From assembly GCA_016875195.1 (NCBI GenBank), contig VGRY01000045.1:1-34619 (forward strand): DNA of 34,619 nt, given 5' to 3'. Positions within the stretch are counted from its first letter, which is position 1. Every line of letters begins with the position of its first letter. The position numbers were made by a program, and so were the translations under genes. Positions 26,528 to 34,262 of this stretch are shown piece by piece. The DNA is from Deltaproteobacteria bacterium (lineage in GTDB: Bacteria; Desulfobacterota; BSN033; UBA1163). The notes beneath the pieces were generated by a model. That model was not told the DNA's origin. It made no database searches and worked only from the letters and a program-made list of their open reading frames with translations.

Positions 26528-27484
26528 TCAAATCAGACTGCAACACATCTCAACAAATTCTGTTTTAAGTCCTATTGAGGTGGCGTAGTCAATCGTTCCC
26601 TGGAGGGGGTAGGCGATGGTGTTGACGCCGGAGTCGATCGCTCCTTTCTCCATTTCTGTCTTCCAGGGGTGGGCGGGCCGGATGCAGCCCATCCGAATAG
26701 GAGTGACGGGATTAAGAATTCTGGTGACGGCTGTAATTTTTGAGGTCTCTTCCGGAGTTGGAGTTTTGAACAAATTATTTTTCATTAGAGGTTTGAGGAT
26801 GACCAGGACGATCGTCTCCACATTGACCCGGGTGACGATCTCGAGCGCCCGCCATTCTCCCCGTATCTCTCCGAAGTGATGGCCGATAATGATATGGGGG
26901 GCAAGCCTGTGGCCCATCTCCTTAAGCATGAAGAGTGTCTCCTCATAATCTTCAACCCGCTTCTTCAGGTGATAGATCTCACGAATCGTCTTTTCATCGC
27001 CGATCATATCTAACAGAATCTGGTCAACGCCCGCATCCTTCAGAGCTTTTGCAGTTTCTCTTTTAATCAGGCCGGTGTGGACGATGATTTTAAAAGAGGG
27101 ATCCATTTCCTTCATCTTCCTGATTGAAGGGATAAATGGATCGAGAGGGACTTCGCCATTTCGGTTTGCTCCACCGCTTAATAGAATACCCAACGCCCCT
27201 TGTGAGCGGAGCCGATCGACTGTTCGAGAAAAAGTCTCAGCATTCTCTGCAGGGATCATTGTTTCGAGGAGTTTTCCTTCGCAGTGGCCGCATTTCAGAT
27301 CACAATGAGCTCCGGTCACGCTGATCGCTGCAAAACGATCTTGGTGAGAGGGAAGGGTGGCGTCCTGATAAGCTACCGTGCCTGGAATGGAGAAGGTTAG
27401 CTCATTGCCAAAATGGAGCTTCCGAAGACGAAAAGCCTCAGTTTGGAGTTCTTTTGTTGGGACTTGTAATAATTCGTTGATCAT
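26528..27484 (-). CDS. Radical SAM protein, LipS1/LipS2-like lipoyl synthase partner
   Basis: 318 residues. The SAM-cluster motif is CDLKCGHC (near residue 61); further Cys include GCIRPAH and a C-terminal MCCSLI. It belongs to the minus-strand run with a second radical SAM protein, a geranylgeranyl-reductase-like flavoprotein and a lipoate ligase. This matches the alternative pathway in which two radical SAM proteins (LipS1 and LipS2) jointly insert two sulfurs into protein-bound octanoate. Which of the two this is I cannot tell. The ATG at 27484 is followed by INELLQVPTKELQTEAFRLR. Confidence 0.72.
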   Translation of the reverse strand: MINELLQVPTKELQTEAFRLRKLHFGNELTFSIPGTVAYQDATLPSHQDRFAAISVTGAHCDLKCGHCEGKLLETMIPAENAETFSRTVDRLRSQGALGILLSGGANRNGEVPLDPFIPSIRKMKEMDPSFKIIVHTGLIKRETAKALKDAGVDQILLDMIGDEKTIREIYHLKKRVEDYEETLFMLKEMGHRLAPHIIIGHHFGEIRGEWRALEIVTRVNVETIVLVILKPLMKNNLFKTPTPEETSKITAVTRILNPVTPIRMGCIRPAHPWKTEMEKGAIDSGVNTIAYPLQGTIDYATSIGLKTEFVEMCCSLI

Positions 27485-27502
27485 GGTGTATTCGCGTATA
27501 AG

Positions 27503-27627
27503 TTAAGCTCCAATAACCAAATTCCAAACTCCAAATAATAACCAATAACCAAATTCCAATAACCCAATATAAATGTTTGGTGATTGATTATTGGAATTTA
27601 TCTGGTTATTGGTGTCTGGTTATTGTC
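27503..27627. repeat. Word-like inverted repeat between the two radical SAM genes
   Basis: The left arm has aataaccaataaccaaattc words and the right arm their complements (attattggaatttatctggt, then ttggtgtctggttattg). Imperfect long hairpin within the lipoate cluster. Confidence 0.8.
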
Positions 27628-28651
27628 ATTTTATTTCCAATTGTCTTTTTATCTCTTCTATATCTTCCGATTCCGGCATGAAGGGGAAGTTCCGGATCGG
27701 GCCGGAAGGCCGCTCGTTTCCATAAGGCCGGTTGCAAGCCACCTTTCCATTCCTTCCCGGGCATCCGGAAGTCATAAATGGTTCGCCCATCTCGATCAAA
27801 GGAGTAATATTGGTTCCGAAATCGACCAGTTTCCCCTGTCCATCAAATTTCATTTGAGAGATTGAACCCAGCCCTTCATTGATGATCCAGCGGGCAAGCT
27901 GAATTCTCCGATAGTGGTCAAGAGGAGGAGAAGGGTGATTTTGCATGGGGCTTCCTTTTTCAGGAAAGAATGAAAAGAGGTGGGTGTAAGCACCCATGTC
28001 CTGGCCTTTTTGAATGGTTTCAACCATCTCTTTCTCAGTTTCACCGAGACCCACGATGAGATGAATTCCTGTATAGAATTCTCCAAAGACCTCTGCTGAC
28101 ATACGGACCACATCCCAGTAGTGGTTCCATTGATGGGGTCCTTCTACGCCTTTTCCCCTTAAGCGATCGAAAAGTTCAGGGGTCGCAGCATCGATGGCAA
28201 TTCCCACCCGGTCGGCTCCAGCCTGTTTCATCGCCATCAGTGCCTCTCTGTCACGAATCAGGGTTGGCGTAATGAGAACGCTGATGAAGAGATCGGTCTT
28301 CTCTTTAAATTCTTTGATGACATAAATCGTATCTTCAAGGGCTTTGGGGTGGGTGATCATAGAGATGCAGACCCGATGGATCTGTTCTTTACCCTTTGTT
28401 TTCTCGATGATTTCCTTCAGGGAATAAAGGGGCCAGTCCACACGGATGAAGGTTTTTCCTTTTGAACCTTCCAGCCTCGTTTTCGAGAGCCCGCAGAAAT
28501 GGCACTTTCCAAGACAGCCTTCTTCATAGTGAAGGAGAAGATTGAGACCTTTGAGTTTTGCGTTCCGATGAAAAGACCCAGACTTGAAGCCAAGGGTAAG
28601 AGAGGCGGCCAGACTGGTCTGGACATATTCAGGGCTTGTTTTCTGTTTCAT
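27626..28651 (-). CDS. Radical SAM protein, LipS1/LipS2-like (biotin-synthase-like)
   Basis: 341 residues. SAM-cluster motif CLGKCHFCGL near residue 46. The barrel resembles biotin synthase types (ADRVGIAIDAATPELFDRLR; TGIHLIVGLGETEKEMVETI), which donate sulfur from an auxiliary cluster. C-terminal Cys in MTSGCPGRNGKVACNRP may hold that cluster. With its neighbour it forms the probable LipS1/LipS2 pair. AAAGGAAA precedes the ATG. Confidence 0.75.
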   Translation of the reverse strand: MKQKTSPEYVQTSLAASLTLGFKSGSFHRNAKLKGLNLLLHYEEGCLGKCHFCGLSKTRLEGSKGKTFIRVDWPLYSLKEIIEKTKGKEQIHRVCISMITHPKALEDTIYVIKEFKEKTDLFISVLITPTLIRDREALMAMKQAGADRVGIAIDAATPELFDRLRGKGVEGPHQWNHYWDVVRMSAEVFGEFYTGIHLIVGLGETEKEMVETIQKGQDMGAYTHLFSFFPEKGSPMQNHPSPPLDHYRRIQLARWIINEGLGSISQMKFDGQGKLVDFGTNITPLIEMGEPFMTSGCPGRNGKVACNRPYGNERPSGPIRNFPFMPESEDIEEIKRQLEIK

Positions 28652-28662
28652 TTTTTCCTTTC

Positions 28663-28683
28663 CGTCCCGACTAAATCGGGACG
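28663..28683. repeat. Short palindrome CGTCCCGA / TCGGGACG
   Basis: Perfect 8-bp stem with a ctaaa loop, 12 nt upstream of the radical SAM ATG. Similar in outer sequence to the palindrome at 26475-26495. Confidence 0.7.
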
Positions 28684-28690
28684 CTACATC

Positions 28691-28741
28691 TTAACCCCTC
28701 CCTGCCTCCCCTTAATTTAAGGGGAGGTGAGGTGGGGTTAA
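28691..28741. repeat. TTAA-centred palindrome, copy 3
   Basis: TTAACCCCTCC... with centre CCTTAATTTAAGG and a near-complementary right arm. Same family as 3748-3798 and 1369-1415. Confidence 0.8.
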
Positions 28742-28754
28742 ACAAGGAGGTAAA

Positions 28755-29858
28755 TCAAGGGGGAGTTATTCTTCGATCCTTATAATACTCTTTAAAACCG
28801 ACCCAGGTTTTTTTTATCAATCTTTCAAAATCAATTTCAGATTTATTCCTATGCTCTTCAAGAAAATTTCTTTTAGATGCTCCATACAGAAGGGGATCTC
28901 CAAAGGTTTCGCGCCACTCCGATTCGTAATTCTCAAGGTAACGAAGGTCTCCTCTTCTGATTGCTTCCGCTCCAATTCTCCCTGCGATTTCTCCTGCCAG
29001 GACAGCATTGAGAATGCCTGCGCCTGTGATGGGATGAGCATGACCTGCTGCATCTCCTACCAGCATGGTGTTTCCGAAGACAGTCTGCTGCCTGGGCTCA
29101 CAAGGGATGGAGCCGCCGGTCTTTGAGACGACTTCAATTCTTGGCAATTTTCCGCAGCCCTTGAGAAGTGTTAAGAAACGGTTGAGCAATTCCGGAAGCA
29201 TGGAGGTTTTCAAAGGGAGAAGGCCCATACCCACATTGGCGGTTCTGCCTTTCGGGAAAAACCAGGCATATCCCCCTTCGTAATCCGGATGAAAATAGAT
29301 ATCGGCATGAGACTGAGGCTCAAAGAGGGCGACCTCGTACTGGAGGGCCACCATCACCTTTGTTGAAGGCTGCTTGGTCCATTTGGCAATCGTTGAATGA
29401 ACCCCATCGGCGCCAATGATCACCTTCGCTCCTATCCATTCTTTTTTAGACCCTTGCTCGATGAGAACACCTTCGGATGAAGTCTCAAGAGCCTTGGCTC
29501 CTGTAAGGACCTCAGCCCCTGATAAAATGGCAGAGGTGGCGAGTTCCTTATCGAAGAGGGAGCGATCGAGCATATACCCCGGACTTTTCATCTCATACCT
29601 TGTTCCATTGGGAAGATGAATGCTCATCGTTTCAATGGATTGAATGATTGATCCGGAGGTGAAAGAGGCGTGGTGGGAAACCCATTTGGACACCAGTTCG
29701 GCACACTGAACTGGAACACCGATGCGCTGGTTCTTCTCAATGAGAAGGACCTTGCATCCCATCCGGGCAGCGGCCCGGGCTGCACTTGATCCGGCAGGAC
29801 CGGCTCCGATCACCAGGATATCATACGATCCGGAGAAGAATAACTCAGCTGTGGACAT
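28755..29858 (-). CDS. FAD-dependent oxidoreductase of the geranylgeranyl reductase family, LipT-like
   Basis: 367 residues. N-terminal dinucleotide-binding motif VIGAGPAGSSAARAAA, the middle AKVIIGADGVHSTIAKW and the second FAD motif GDAAGHAHPITGAGI are all present. In bacteria with the sLpl(AB)-LipS1/S2 pathway such a flavoprotein (LipT) lies beside the ligase and is thought to feed electrons to the radical SAM enzymes. Its ATG overlaps the ligase gene by 14 nt, so the two are translationally coupled. An isoprenoid-reductase role is the alternative. Confidence 0.78.
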   Translation of the reverse strand: MSTAELFFSGSYDILVIGAGPAGSSAARAAARMGCKVLLIEKNQRIGVPVQCAELVSKWVSHHASFTSGSIIQSIETMSIHLPNGTRYEMKSPGYMLDRSLFDKELATSAILSGAEVLTGAKALETSSEGVLIEQGSKKEWIGAKVIIGADGVHSTIAKWTKQPSTKVMVALQYEVALFEPQSHADIYFHPDYEGGYAWFFPKGRTANVGMGLLPLKTSMLPELLNRFLTLLKGCGKLPRIEVVSKTGGSIPCEPRQQTVFGNTMLVGDAAGHAHPITGAGILNAVLAGEIAGRIGAEAIRRGDLRYLENYESEWRETFGDPLLYGASKRNFLEEHRNKSEIDFERLIKKTWVGFKEYYKDRRITPP

Positions 29859-31401
29859 ACTCTAATATCCTTCTGAGGAGTGTGAGGTTGAGATGGGTCT
29901 GATTCTCAAACCTTCCGAAGTGGGCCTCTTTCACTTGATTCAAGTCATAACAGGTGCTTCTCTCCACATCTACCAAAATACCCGGAAGTCCGATCCTTTC
30001 AAAGTCAGGACGGTGTTTCCCATAAAATGGTTCGCAACATGAGCCAATAAAGGCTCTTGCTCCCGAACCCTTGACCTGATAGAGGGTTGATTCGAGGTCT
30101 TCATAATTCTGGATGGTCAGATAATCCATATTAAAAGATCTGGCCATCTGAACTGCATCTCCAATGGAACACCGGCCGCATTCTTCACACCCTTTCTGGT
30201 ATCTGAAGTCACAGTCTATTTCCTTGGCACAGTAGGGAAGGAGGAGGACTTCGGGTTTTTTCACTTCTGCAAAGGGCTTTGATACAGGAAAGAGATGGTG
30301 GGTTTCTTCTTCATCAAATCCATGGGGAAGGAGATCCATCTTTTGTATGGCTTCGAGAATGGCCTGCGTGAAGTGAACCTCTTTCACTCCCGGAATCCGG
30401 GGTTTTGTTTTAGCAAAAAAGGTCTGGATGATGGTGTCAAGGTTATCAGGAGTAGCCCGTGAATTCTTGAGAAGACTTTCGAGATCGAAGATTGCTCTCT
30501 TGGGGTAGGCAAAAAAATCTCCGGTGATCAAAATCTGGTTGATCACCTGCGTTTTTGTATCAATGGCCATGGAGATGCGTATCAATCCGCCCGGGGCTTT
30601 GAGAATGGAGGTAAGGGTCTTTCTTCTTGGCAGGGCCTCTCTCACCTTAAAGATATAGTCTGAAGAAGAGAAATAAGGAAGCTTAATTCTTAGCAGATTT
30701 TCCTCTTCAGTGGTTAAAGGTTGAGGGTTGAAGGTAATGCCGAAGGCTTCTCCGAAACCTTTGATCAGAGAATCTTTGATAGTCGCCAATGAGGGTTTGC
30801 GTCCCAATTCCCATCTCAAGCAGGTGACCCTCTCTTTGACTGAATCGATCTCCTTATCCTGTAGTTTTTCAGTTGGAATTCTCAATGCCCTGAGCATTTC
30901 ATCCACATCGAAATCAACCAGGAGTGTTCCCTGAAAGAGAATGGCACCAGAGAGTTCGGTTCCGCCTGTTCCGGAGATCTTGCGGCCGCTGACCTCCACA
31001 TCGTTTCTTGGACGGAAATAAGCCCTAAGACCAAGGCGTTGAAGCCCATTGGCTGAGGCTTCTCCCATCTTCCGATAGAGATCTTCGATCCTCGAAGGGA
31101 TTCGAGAATCTGTTTTTGAAATATAGATCTCCCAGCCCAGTTCTGCCCTTCCCCAGTAGATGGACCCTCCTCCGGTGAGCCTCCGGTTGATCTCAATCTT
31201 TTTCTCCTGGCAGTACGAAAGCCTCACCTCTTCTTCAACAGATTGATGATGGCCCACCAGGACAGATGGATTGGAGAACTGGAGAAACCGGAGCGTATGC
31301 GGGGTCTTTTCGCAGGCCTTCTGTTCGAGGAGCACCTCATCGAGGGCCATATTTTCAGCGGCCGAACGGGCACCGGTATCTAAGAGTCGCCATGTTTCCA
31401 T
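29845..31401 (-). CDS. Lipoate-protein ligase (LplA + LplB) fused to DUF116
   Basis: 518 residues. The catalytic domain (about 1-220) has NRRLTGGGSIYWGRAELGWE and the substrate lysine region VSGRKISGTGG. The LplB-type accessory domain (about 250-345) runs from FKVREALPRRKTL. From about residue 385 a DUF116 domain follows, rich in Cys (PYCAKEIDCDFRYQKGCEEC, then CSIG and GSCCEP). Attaches octanoate or lipoate to dehydrogenase and glycine-cleavage H proteins. The fused Cys-rich domain could bind Fe-S or supply sulfur (inference). First gene of the lipoate cluster. Confidence 0.85.
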   Translation of the reverse strand: METWRLLDTGARSAAENMALDEVLLEQKACEKTPHTLRFLQFSNPSVLVGHHQSVEEEVRLSYCQEKKIEINRRLTGGGSIYWGRAELGWEIYISKTDSRIPSRIEDLYRKMGEASANGLQRLGLRAYFRPRNDVEVSGRKISGTGGTELSGAILFQGTLLVDFDVDEMLRALRIPTEKLQDKEIDSVKERVTCLRWELGRKPSLATIKDSLIKGFGEAFGITFNPQPLTTEEENLLRIKLPYFSSSDYIFKVREALPRRKTLTSILKAPGGLIRISMAIDTKTQVINQILITGDFFAYPKRAIFDLESLLKNSRATPDNLDTIIQTFFAKTKPRIPGVKEVHFTQAILEAIQKMDLLPHGFDEEETHHLFPVSKPFAEVKKPEVLLLPYCAKEIDCDFRYQKGCEECGRCSIGDAVQMARSFNMDYLTIQNYEDLESTLYQVKGSGARAFIGSCCEPFYGKHRPDFERIGLPGILVDVERSTCYDLNQVKEAHFGRFENQTHLNLTLLRRILEYVHS

Positions 31402-31519
31402 TGATTAATGGTATAGCCTATTTTTGCTCACCCTTCAACGGAAACTATGGATTTTTCCATTCTAACATGATAGATTCATTGATGTCGCCGGTCGTTAAAA
31501 GAAAGGAGGAAATAGAAGG

Positions 31520-31975
31520 ATGGATGATGCAAAATCGGTTTCGGAGAAAGCAAAAGGCTATTTTGATCAGGGATACAATTGAGCGGAGTCCGTCTCCTTG
31601 AGTTTCAAGGATTATTTAGGTTTTGAAGATTCCCTGCTCCCCAGATTGGCTTCGGGATTCGGCGGAGGAGTTGGCCGGAAAGGCTCGCTCTGCGGAGCCT
31701 TCACTGCTGCCATCATGGCCATCGGGATGAAGATGGGGAGAACCGATCCAAAAGACCGGAAAACCCTTTTAATGGTTTATGAGAAATGTCAGCAGTTCTG
31801 GGAAAAGTTCGAAAAAGAGTTCGGGAGCAGAAACTGCTATGACCTGATCGGTCTTCATCTGGATGATCCGGAGGAGAATAAGAAGTGGGCGGAGACCGGT
31901 GGTCGAGAAAAATGTACTGCCATCGTCGAAAAGACCGCAGGAATGCTCTGTGAATTTTTAGGAGAGATTAAATAG
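31520..31975 (+). CDS. C_GCAxxG_C_C family redox protein, probable selenoprotein (TGA = Sec at codon 21)
   Basis: 151 residues if the TGA at 31580-31582 is read as selenocysteine. The ATG at 31520 follows a strong AAAGGAGG. Its frame reads AKGYFDQGYN-U-AESVSLSFKDY and continues without a shift to the stop at 31973. In this family the first conserved Cys lies exactly at that place (YNCAxxV). Further Cys are in GSLCGAFTAA, RNCYDL, KCTAIV and MLCEF. A hairpin TCCTTGA-GTT-TCAAGGA (31595-31611) places its loop about 20 nt after TGA with G first, as in bacterial SECIS elements. The alternative, a TTG start at 31598, lacks a good ribosome binding site and drops the first active residue. Confidence 0.8.
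31595..31611 (+). promoter_or_regulatory. Candidate bacterial SECIS hairpin
   Basis: Perfect 7-bp stem TCCTTGA / TCAAGGA with the 3-nt loop GTT, starting 12 nt after the in-frame TGA at 31580-31582. Bacterial SECIS hairpins lie within the coding sequence just after UGA and have a G among the first loop bases; both hold here. Confidence 0.65.
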
Positions 31976-31985
31976 GAGAAGTCGT

Positions 31986-34262
31986 TTGGATCTTCTCAAA
32001 ACATACCGCCTCTATAAAAAGATCAATCAGTATCCCCATCTCCTCGGATTGATCCGCAGCACCTTTATGGACATCCTGGAAAAGAAGGGGATCGTCACGC
32101 GGAGCAGGCTTTACGAACAGTCCGTGGAGGAGTTGAAGAAGGATGGGCTACCGGATACTGAGGCCAACCGTCAGGATTATCTGGAGACCCTGATTGACTA
32201 TTACTTTGCAACCCACCTGACTCCCTCCGAGATAGAAAACTATATCAACCTTGCCCGTAAAAGGGATAGGGCACAGACGCTGAGCAAGATTGTCAACCTG
32301 GACCAAGCCAGCTCCGTCGAAATTTTCAATGCTCTACAGGAGTTCTGCGAAATTCCAAAAGGAGAGGTCTATATTTCAAGAGAGGAAGCCGAAGGAATCC
32401 GTGTTGCCCTGATCACCCGGTTTATCTCAAGTCAGCTTCCGTTCATCAGTCTTGCTAAGAATCATATTACTATGCGTGACTTTCAAGACCTCCTTCAGCA
32501 CACCCGTTGGAGCCGGAAGAGGCCCGGTAAACTGGGAGGGAAAGCCGCGGGTATGATTTTGGCTCATAAGATCCTCCTGCCGTTATTGGAGGAGAAAGAT
32601 CCGGAGCTCGAGGAGTATGTCCGGGTTCCGGAGACTTGGTATTTGAATTCGGGCGTTTTTTCAGAGTTTCTAGACCGTAACAATCTCTATCTCTTTCATA
32701 CCTTCAAATATAAGGATCGTGAAGCGATTGAGAAAGAATTTTCAAGGATTGAAGAAAGGTTCAGGTTTGCCAACTTCGCTCCTGAGGTAGTTGAAGATTT
32801 TCGGAAGATCCTGACAGAGATTGGTGAACATCCGATCATCATTCGATCTTCGAGCATGCTTGAGGATAATTTCGGCCTGGCCTTCTCAGGCAAATATCTC
32901 TCCCTCTTTCTGACGAACCAGGGAGATATTGAAACCCGTTTGAACCATTTCATCATGGGTCTTAAAAAGGTGTTCGCCAGCATCTTCGGGCCCGATCCCA
33001 TCCTTTACCGGAGAGATCACGGGCTTTTGGACTATGATGAGAGAATGGCCATGATGGTTCAAAAAGTTGTGGGAAGACAATTTGGGGACTACTTTTTGCC
33101 CTTTATCGGAGGGGTGATGTTCTCGCGGAATGTCCACACCTGGAATCCCAAGATCAGGAAGGAGGAAGGGTTGGTGAGGCTGGTCTTAGGTCTTGGAACC
33201 CGAGCGGTTGACCGTGTGGGTTCTGATTATCCGAGAATGATTCCCTTGAGCCATCCCCAACTCCGGCCAGAGGTGACAGGAGACCAGATCAAAAAGTATT
33301 CTCAGAGGCAGGTGGATGTCCTCAATCTGAAAAAAGGAATATTGGAAACGGTTGATTTCAGAACCCTGGCTTCTCAAGTTGACCATCCTGATCTATTTTA
33401 TGCGGTCTCGATTCAAAAAGACGATCATCTCTCTCCTCCTCTATTCAAGACCCAAGATCTTAAGGGAGAAGAACTCTGTATCACTTTCGATAATTTTTTA
33501 AACAAGAGTCATTTCGTTCGGCTCGCCAGGAAGATTCTCTCCAGAATTGAAGCAGCTTATGGAAGGCCTGTGGATATTGAGTTCGCATGGAATGATAATA
33601 AATTTTTTCTCCTCCAGTGCCGATCCCTTTCCATTCGTAAGGAGAGGGAAATTGTGGAATTGCCGGAAGCGGTCAGTCCGGAAAAGATCCTGTTTACAAC
33701 ACAGACGGCCCTCTCCAATAGCATCGTTCCTAACCTGGAGTATATCGTCTATGTGAATCCGAAGGCTTATGACCTGTTGCCCACCTATGAACGGAAGATG
33801 AAGGTTGCCACCCTCGTCAATCTGTTGAACAAGCATCTTGCAGAGAAGCGGTTTGCCCTGATGGGGCCTGGACGGTGGGGAAGCAACGATATCAACCTTG
33901 GGGTCAGGGTCACTTACTCCAGTATCAATAAAACCAAGCTGCTGGTGGAGATCGCCTTTGCCAGGAACGGTTCCACACCGGAGGTTTCTTACGGAACCCA
34001 TTTCTTCCAGGACCTGGTTGAGGCCGATATCGGGATTGTGCCCCTCTACCCGGATGATCCGGAATCCGTTTTTAATGAGGAGTTCCTGCTCAGGTCTCTC
34101 AACCTGCTGGGGGAGATCGCCCCAGAAGCCATAGGTAATAATGAAGTAGTCCGGGTCATTCATGTTCCTTCTGTGTGCAACGGACTCTATCTGCAGGTCT
34201 TTCTCAGCGCAGAACAGCATAAAAGCATCGGTTTTTTCGGCCCTATCATGGAGTTAAAATAA
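31986..34262 (+). CDS. PEP/pyruvate-binding domain protein
   Basis: 758 residues from TTG at 31986 with GGAGA before it. A helical N-terminus (~1-170) precedes an ATP-grasp-like PPDK/PEP-synthase N-terminal domain: GKLGGKAAGMILAHKILLPL, HPIIIRSSSMLEDNFGLAFS and FFLLQCRSLS. The C-terminal part (RFALMGPGRWGSNDINLGVR) is an extra domain. The swivelling phosphohistidine domain of PEP synthase is absent, so it is probably not a full synthase; regulatory or partner functions are possible. It begins 10 nt after the selenoprotein stop, suggesting co-transcription. Confidence 0.85.
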   Translation: MDLLKTYRLYKKINQYPHLLGLIRSTFMDILEKKGIVTRSRLYEQSVEELKKDGLPDTEANRQDYLETLIDYYFATHLTPSEIENYINLARKRDRAQTLSKIVNLDQASSVEIFNALQEFCEIPKGEVYISREEAEGIRVALITRFISSQLPFISLAKNHITMRDFQDLLQHTRWSRKRPGKLGGKAAGMILAHKILLPLLEEKDPELEEYVRVPETWYLNSGVFSEFLDRNNLYLFHTFKYKDREAIEKEFSRIEERFRFANFAPEVVEDFRKILTEIGEHPIIIRSSSMLEDNFGLAFSGKYLSLFLTNQGDIETRLNHFIMGLKKVFASIFGPDPILYRRDHGLLDYDERMAMMVQKVVGRQFGDYFLPFIGGVMFSRNVHTWNPKIRKEEGLVRLVLGLGTRAVDRVGSDYPRMIPLSHPQLRPEVTGDQIKKYSQRQVDVLNLKKGILETVDFRTLASQVDHPDLFYAVSIQKDDHLSPPLFKTQDLKGEELCITFDNFLNKSHFVRLARKILSRIEAAYGRPVDIEFAWNDNKFFLLQCRSLSIRKEREIVELPEAVSPEKILFTTQTALSNSIVPNLEYIVYVNPKAYDLLPTYERKMKVATLVNLLNKHLAEKRFALMGPGRWGSNDINLGVRVTYSSINKTKLLVEIAFARNGSTPEVSYGTHFFQDLVEADIGIVPLYPDDPESVFNEEFLLRSLNLLGEIAPEAIGNNEVVRVIHVPSVCNGLYLQVFLSAEQHKSIGFFGPIMELK

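Follow-up and report, generated by a model that had tools for sequence, protein, structure and literature searches.

Selenium-containing members of the C-GCAxxG-C-C family have been listed before. In the parts of the sources available to us, Table 1 of PMC13188914 gives C-GCAxxG-C-C family selenoproteins in two forms, 1 and 2 (PF09719), and Table 1 of PMC9312934, on predicted prokaryotic selenoproteins, includes the family with WP_012158890.1. The accessible part of PMC4103992 names a family member among the proteins of Desulfococcus biacutus grown on acetone. PMC9312934 refers by number to PMC2398784 for the family, but the string GCAxxG was not found in the available portion of that paper, nor in PMC8318568. 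No established or measured reaction for the family was seen in those portions of its literature that we searched.

A family gene with an in-frame TGA codon

We analyzed a 34,619-nt stretch of DNA from a Deltaproteobacteria bacterium (contig VGRY01000045.1), referred to in its full length as the window. Direct reading of the sequence revealed a frame of 151 codons that opens at ATG 31520, contains a single TGA and then stays open up to a TAG at 31973–31975, so that the TGA is its only interruption, as an earlier note on this DNA had described. The strong ribosome binding site that the note had placed before this ATG corresponds to a GGAGG. The mechanically generated ORF list holds only 31598–31975, read from a TTG and encoding 125 aa, which is 26 codons shorter than the frame from ATG 31520 and agrees with what the note had expected of a standard gene caller. 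A gene caller that treats TGA as a stop shortens the gene in the same way and loses the selenocysteine (Sec) residue. The features of the locus are:

31505..31509, plus strand: GGAGG, resembling a ribosome binding site, ahead of the ATG (sequence)
31520..31975, plus strand: gene of the C_GCAxxG_C_C family, 151 residues, predicted Sec at residue 21, stop codon TAG (frame read, family profiles, 17 orthologs)
31580..31582, plus strand: TGA, codon 21, predicted to be read as Sec, at the first of the family's invariant Cys columns (alignments, orthologs)
31595..31611, plus strand: SECIS-like hairpin, 7-bp stem TCCTTGA/TCAAGGA, loop GTT (consensus scan, synonymous recoding, stem comparison in orthologs)
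31691..31693, plus strand: codon of invariant Cys58, CGA motif (alignment; position derived from the residue numbering and verified on the sequence)
31835..31837, plus strand: codon of invariant Cys106 (alignment; position obtained in the same way)
31913..31915, plus strand: codon of invariant Cys132 (alignment; position obtained in the same way)

The read-through protein belongs to Pfam family PF09719 (C_GCAxxG_C_C), which it matches over residues 19–145 with 105.1 bits (cut-off 27), and to TIGR01909 with 81.2 bits (cut-off 47.4), an entry that NCBIfam labels C-GCAxxG-C-C family "(seleno)protein". Across 69 aligned sequences (the window protein plus 68 of 86 chosen sequences, the 18 most divergent being excluded), C/U21, G50, C58, G59, F97, C106 and C132 are invariant. 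The four-cysteine order C-GCA-C-C contained in the family name is thus found at columns 21 (Sec here), 58, 106 and 132 of these sequences.

Judged from sequence evidence, 31520–31975 very probably encodes a C_GCAxxG_C_C selenoprotein in which UGA 31580 is read as Sec via the hairpin and for which we infer a redox role of Sec21. The note's proposal of a probable selenoprotein of this family is thus supported by the TGA shared among orthologs, by the hairpin test and by the Sec machinery of the genome, each described below.

Predicted role of Sec21

In the mechanism we propose, the ribosome would start at ATG 31520, and the hairpin at 31595–31611 would recruit the SelB–tRNA-Sec complex at UGA 31580, leading to insertion of Sec instead of termination. 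Sec21 would stand for the first of the four invariant cysteines and would most likely be the nucleophilic or redox residue, at a putative active site as the note had it. It may form a selenylsulfide with another conserved cysteine, for which Cys58 is the first candidate, and the protein could be a small oxidoreductase or electron carrier of helical structure. Our best inference, based on the use of Sec in general and on the family, is that Sec21 engages in redox chemistry with the conserved Cys58, Cys106 and Cys132.

An AlphaFold2 model, computed from 9 similar sequences and with Cys in place of Sec, is mainly helical with a mean pLDDT of 75.6. Residues 21, 58 and 106 each open a helix in this model, and placement at a helix start often lowers the pKa of a thiol. 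The stretch before Cys58 (residues 47–57) has a pLDDT below 50. Foldseek comparison of the model with the PDB gave 63 matches at E≤10 and none at E 0.001, so that the fold pointed to no function; because of this and of the low pLDDT before Cys58, the redox step is drawn from the family. A sequence search of the PDB yielded no clear relative, its one weak match (RdmE, E 0.016) being taken as chance.

It is also possible, though less likely, that the protein is a selenoprotein in which Sec21 and the three cysteines bind a metal, an Fe-S cluster or a sulfur- or selenium-bearing ligand, with no selenylsulfide cycling. The invariance of Cys/Sec at four positions would suit such a site; against it, Sec is rarer as a structural cluster ligand than as a redox nucleophile. 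In favor of such a site, a member from Desulfovibrio ferrophilus is tabled as "putative FeS cluster-binding" in the available part of a proteomics study (PMC8322314). We favor the redox role for Sec21.

The TGA codon is shared by orthologs and aligned with Cys in the family

Among 17 genomes of the order, 16 contain the family and 15 a TGA-bearing copy. Defining orthologs by at least 60% identity, we obtained 17 distinct sequences when copies from 15 of the 17 genomes were taken together with eight named loci. For these eight loci, from metagenome-assembled genomes labeled Deltaproteobacteria, Thermodesulfobacteriota, Syntrophaceae or uncultured proteobacterium, the matched protein stretch is identical to eight of the copies from the order. 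All 17 distinct orthologs carry TGA at codon 21. Pooled over the 136 pairs of these orthologs, pN/pS is 0.126 in the 14 codons before the TGA, indicating that they are under purifying selection, and 0.211 over codons +8 to +119.

On a wider scale, 395 genomes of the phylum were sampled, and profile P0001 has matches in 213 of them. The loci that we fetched contain 117 profile hits, of which 114 pass 1e-20 and 94 of these are non-redundant. In this set the residue-21 column holds TGA in 57 sequences and Cys in 37, counts that are not frequencies because the fetching favored TGA-bearing matches. The TGA therefore sits at the first conserved Cys, as the note had stated, and the alignment to homologs that it had suggested returned Cys/Sec exchange at residue 21 and not one sequence of the 94 with Trp or any other residue. 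Elsewhere within the aligned domain, TGA occurs in a single sequence (L100) and an internal TAG in another (L101). The locus thus has an in-frame TGA that is aligned with Cys of homologs and common to its orthologs, the pattern by which bacterial selenoproteins are recognized. A quick tree of 93 rows, weakly resolved with 35 of 90 inner branches open, requires a minimum of 12 Sec/Cys exchanges at this column, and at least 12 exchanges at one position make the family useful for studying what leads to retention or loss of Sec.

These data also bear on two readings in which the TGA is not decoded as Sec. Translation might start after the TGA, at TTG 31598 or elsewhere, to give a 125-aa protein that has no first Cys, with the TGA closing a leader peptide. 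This would match the mechanical ORF list, yet it is very improbable and was rejected: in the Cys homologs a single frame spans these upstream residues too, the 14 upstream codons have the low pN/pS given above, GGAGG precedes ATG 31520, and the short product would miss the position occupied by Cys or Sec in every one of the 94 sequences. Still less probable is a change of TGC or TGT to TGA by nonsense mutation, by assembly error or in the course of gene decay, which would make the downstream frame a relic. Such errors do occur in fragmented assemblies like this one (187 contigs, 87% complete), but here the identical TGA is found in all 17 distinct orthologs, which come from 15 genomes, the codons before and after it are under purifying selection, and it recurs at one column in 57 family sequences with only L100 having it elsewhere in the domain; being shared and constrained, the TGA does not fit decay or error, and we rejected this reading. 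Decoding of the TGA as Sec is the reading we retain.

A SECIS-like hairpin follows the TGA in most Sec forms

The bacterial SECIS consensus given in the accessible part of PMC13188914 places the loop 16–37 nt from the UGA, with G in its first or second position. The hairpin in the window, whose GTT loop begins with G and is separated from the TGA by 19 nt, conforms to this consensus; the perfect 7-bp hairpin with a G-first loop at SECIS distance reported in the note was found again at 31595–31611. In the 17 orthologs, codons +1 to +7 have a pS of 0.355, compared to 0.738 upstream and 0.745 further downstream, which is as expected if the RNA there bears a second signal.

We scanned the family for the published consensus. 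In each gene, the best perfect stem that had a G at loop position 1 or 2 and its loop 14–26 nt from the codon was compared with 500 synonymous recodings, and a shifted position at 30–42 nt served as a control. Sec forms reached a mean z of 3.22, with p≤0.05 in 38 of 57 and not in the remaining 19, whereas Cys forms had a mean z of −0.15 and p≤0.05 in 1 of 37. The shifted control gave mean z values of −0.08 (Sec forms) and −0.04 (Cys forms). For the hairpin of the window gene itself, z is 4.38 and p is 0.010. Stem scores of at least 12 were observed in 54/57 Sec forms versus 4/37 Cys forms (Fisher p 1.6e-17, a value that ignores relatedness); among the three lower-scoring Sec forms are L058 and L124. 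In an earlier, looser scan with no G requirement, the loop of the best hairpin had G as its first or second base in 56/57 Sec and 10/37 Cys forms. In a pair test controlled for relatedness, which with 5 pairs is too small for significance, a mean of 2.7 pairs went in the expected direction, 0 in the opposite one and 2.3 were equal (median p 0.25).

The stem hardly varies among the 17 orthologs, and its covariation is therefore weak: five of eight pairs never vary, and the one pair with a two-sided change was reached by 46 of 500 shuffles. In ortholog L054, A-U replaces G-C through two synonymous changes, and L030 has a G-U in the stem. Because free folding of 31575–31640 is only modestly unusual (z −1.81, with 10 of 200 shuffles equally good), the comparative evidence carries the SECIS assignment. 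An Rfam scan of 31400–32000 returned no SECIS family, and its sole match, a snoRNA at E 3.3, was taken as chance.

The genome encodes the selenocysteine machinery

The source genome assembly (4.08 Mb, 5% contamination) contains all four components that the note had named for checking, SelA, SelB, SelD and tRNA-Sec. The matches score 631.5 bits for selA, 360.9 bits for selB and 368.2 bits for selD, which has one in-frame internal TGA in the context SRTCGUAAK. tRNA-Sec scores 79.3 bits, above the gathering score, and has a TCA anticodon according to ARAGORN; a single contig (C33) carries both it and selA. General reassignment of TGA in this organism, for example to Trp, found no support, is practically negligible as a possibility and was rejected, since TGA serves as a normal stop, ending 12 of 25 hand-picked window genes, no stop lies inside the best hits for selA and selB, and homologs align Cys rather than Trp.

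Among genomes whose fetched copy is the Sec form, 36 of 38 have selA above the cut-off, the two misses being 73% and 67% complete; the same holds for 22 of 26 genomes whose fetched copy is the Cys form, where other Sec copies are possible. As selA fails to separate the two groups, it is no evidence for Sec/Cys exchange.

Further copies and unusual relatives

The source genome harbors a second, divergent C_GCAxxG_C_C copy (L002:1441–1899, contig C44), which has TGA where the first Cys is expected and a G-loop hairpin of its own. The sister genes L111 (Sec, TGA; genome G063) and L131 (Cys, TGT; genome G027), whose genomes belong to one genus, have the same hairpin. The pair resembles a recent exchange between Sec and Cys in which the SECIS is either left over or incipient; neither of the two genomes, both incomplete, gave a selA match.

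L101 (genome G235) is a Cys form with an internal TAG ahead of the CGA motif. This genome gave no PylS and no selA match, so that the TAG probably represents either a true stop or an error. L100 (genome G141) is likewise a Cys form, with its TGA (L100:369–371) at a variable site that is Asp in the gene of L133 from the same genus, and this TGA is therefore probably a mutation or an error rather than Sec. Relatives are present in 6 of 72,556 plasmid records, all below 60% identity, and one scan of viral contigs confirmed none.

Neighboring genes

Upstream and divergent, on the minus strand at 26528–31401, lies a likely cluster of lipS1, lipS2, a lipT-like FAD oxidoreductase and a lipoate ligase (with DUF116). 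It resembles the lipS1-sLpl(AB)-lipT-lipS2 clusters described in the available part of PMC10332631. LipS1 matches with 229.3 bits, just under the NCBI cut-off of 230, and LipS2 with 234.8 bits, clearly under its cut-off of 270, indicating a divergent version of the cluster; the FAD protein is of the geranylgeranyl-reductase type. Within the available flanks, at least 7 of the 17 orthologs have the ligase gene as a neighbor of the selenoprotein gene. One could imagine that the Sec-only ortholog group (17/17) is a distinct functional clade working with this LipS1/LipS2/FAD-oxidoreductase/lipoate-ligase cluster, for example by acting as a selenol-based redox partner, either in the reductive assembly of lipoyl or in lipoyl-protein redox, an idea to which we give little credence.

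On the plus strand, a frame of 758 aa at 31986–34262 contains a PPDK_N ATP-binding domain; the first listed start of this frame (TTG) is 10 bases past the selenoprotein gene. A homolog of this frame is also found beside a few orthologs.

Comparison with known members of the family

The read-through protein is a member of TIGR01909, from which we found no difference. It has a domain in common with the DVU_1555 family C-GCAxxG-C-C proteins (NF045669), a subfamily from which it is excluded by its 56.9 bits, far below the cut-off of 103. Similarity to the HUGP/GUXX-star fusion selenoprotein (NF045501) is partial, with 52.5 bits against a cut-off of 325. Forms 1 and 2 of the published lists (PMC13188914, PMC9312934) belong to the same Pfam family and, as far as the accessible tables go, likewise have one predicted Sec per protein; these tables give no Sec motif or position for the two forms, and the comparison covers the Pfam family and the number of Sec residues. 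Selenium-containing members are thus already on record and the kind is not new; to them, the gene at 31520–31975 adds a well-supported member.
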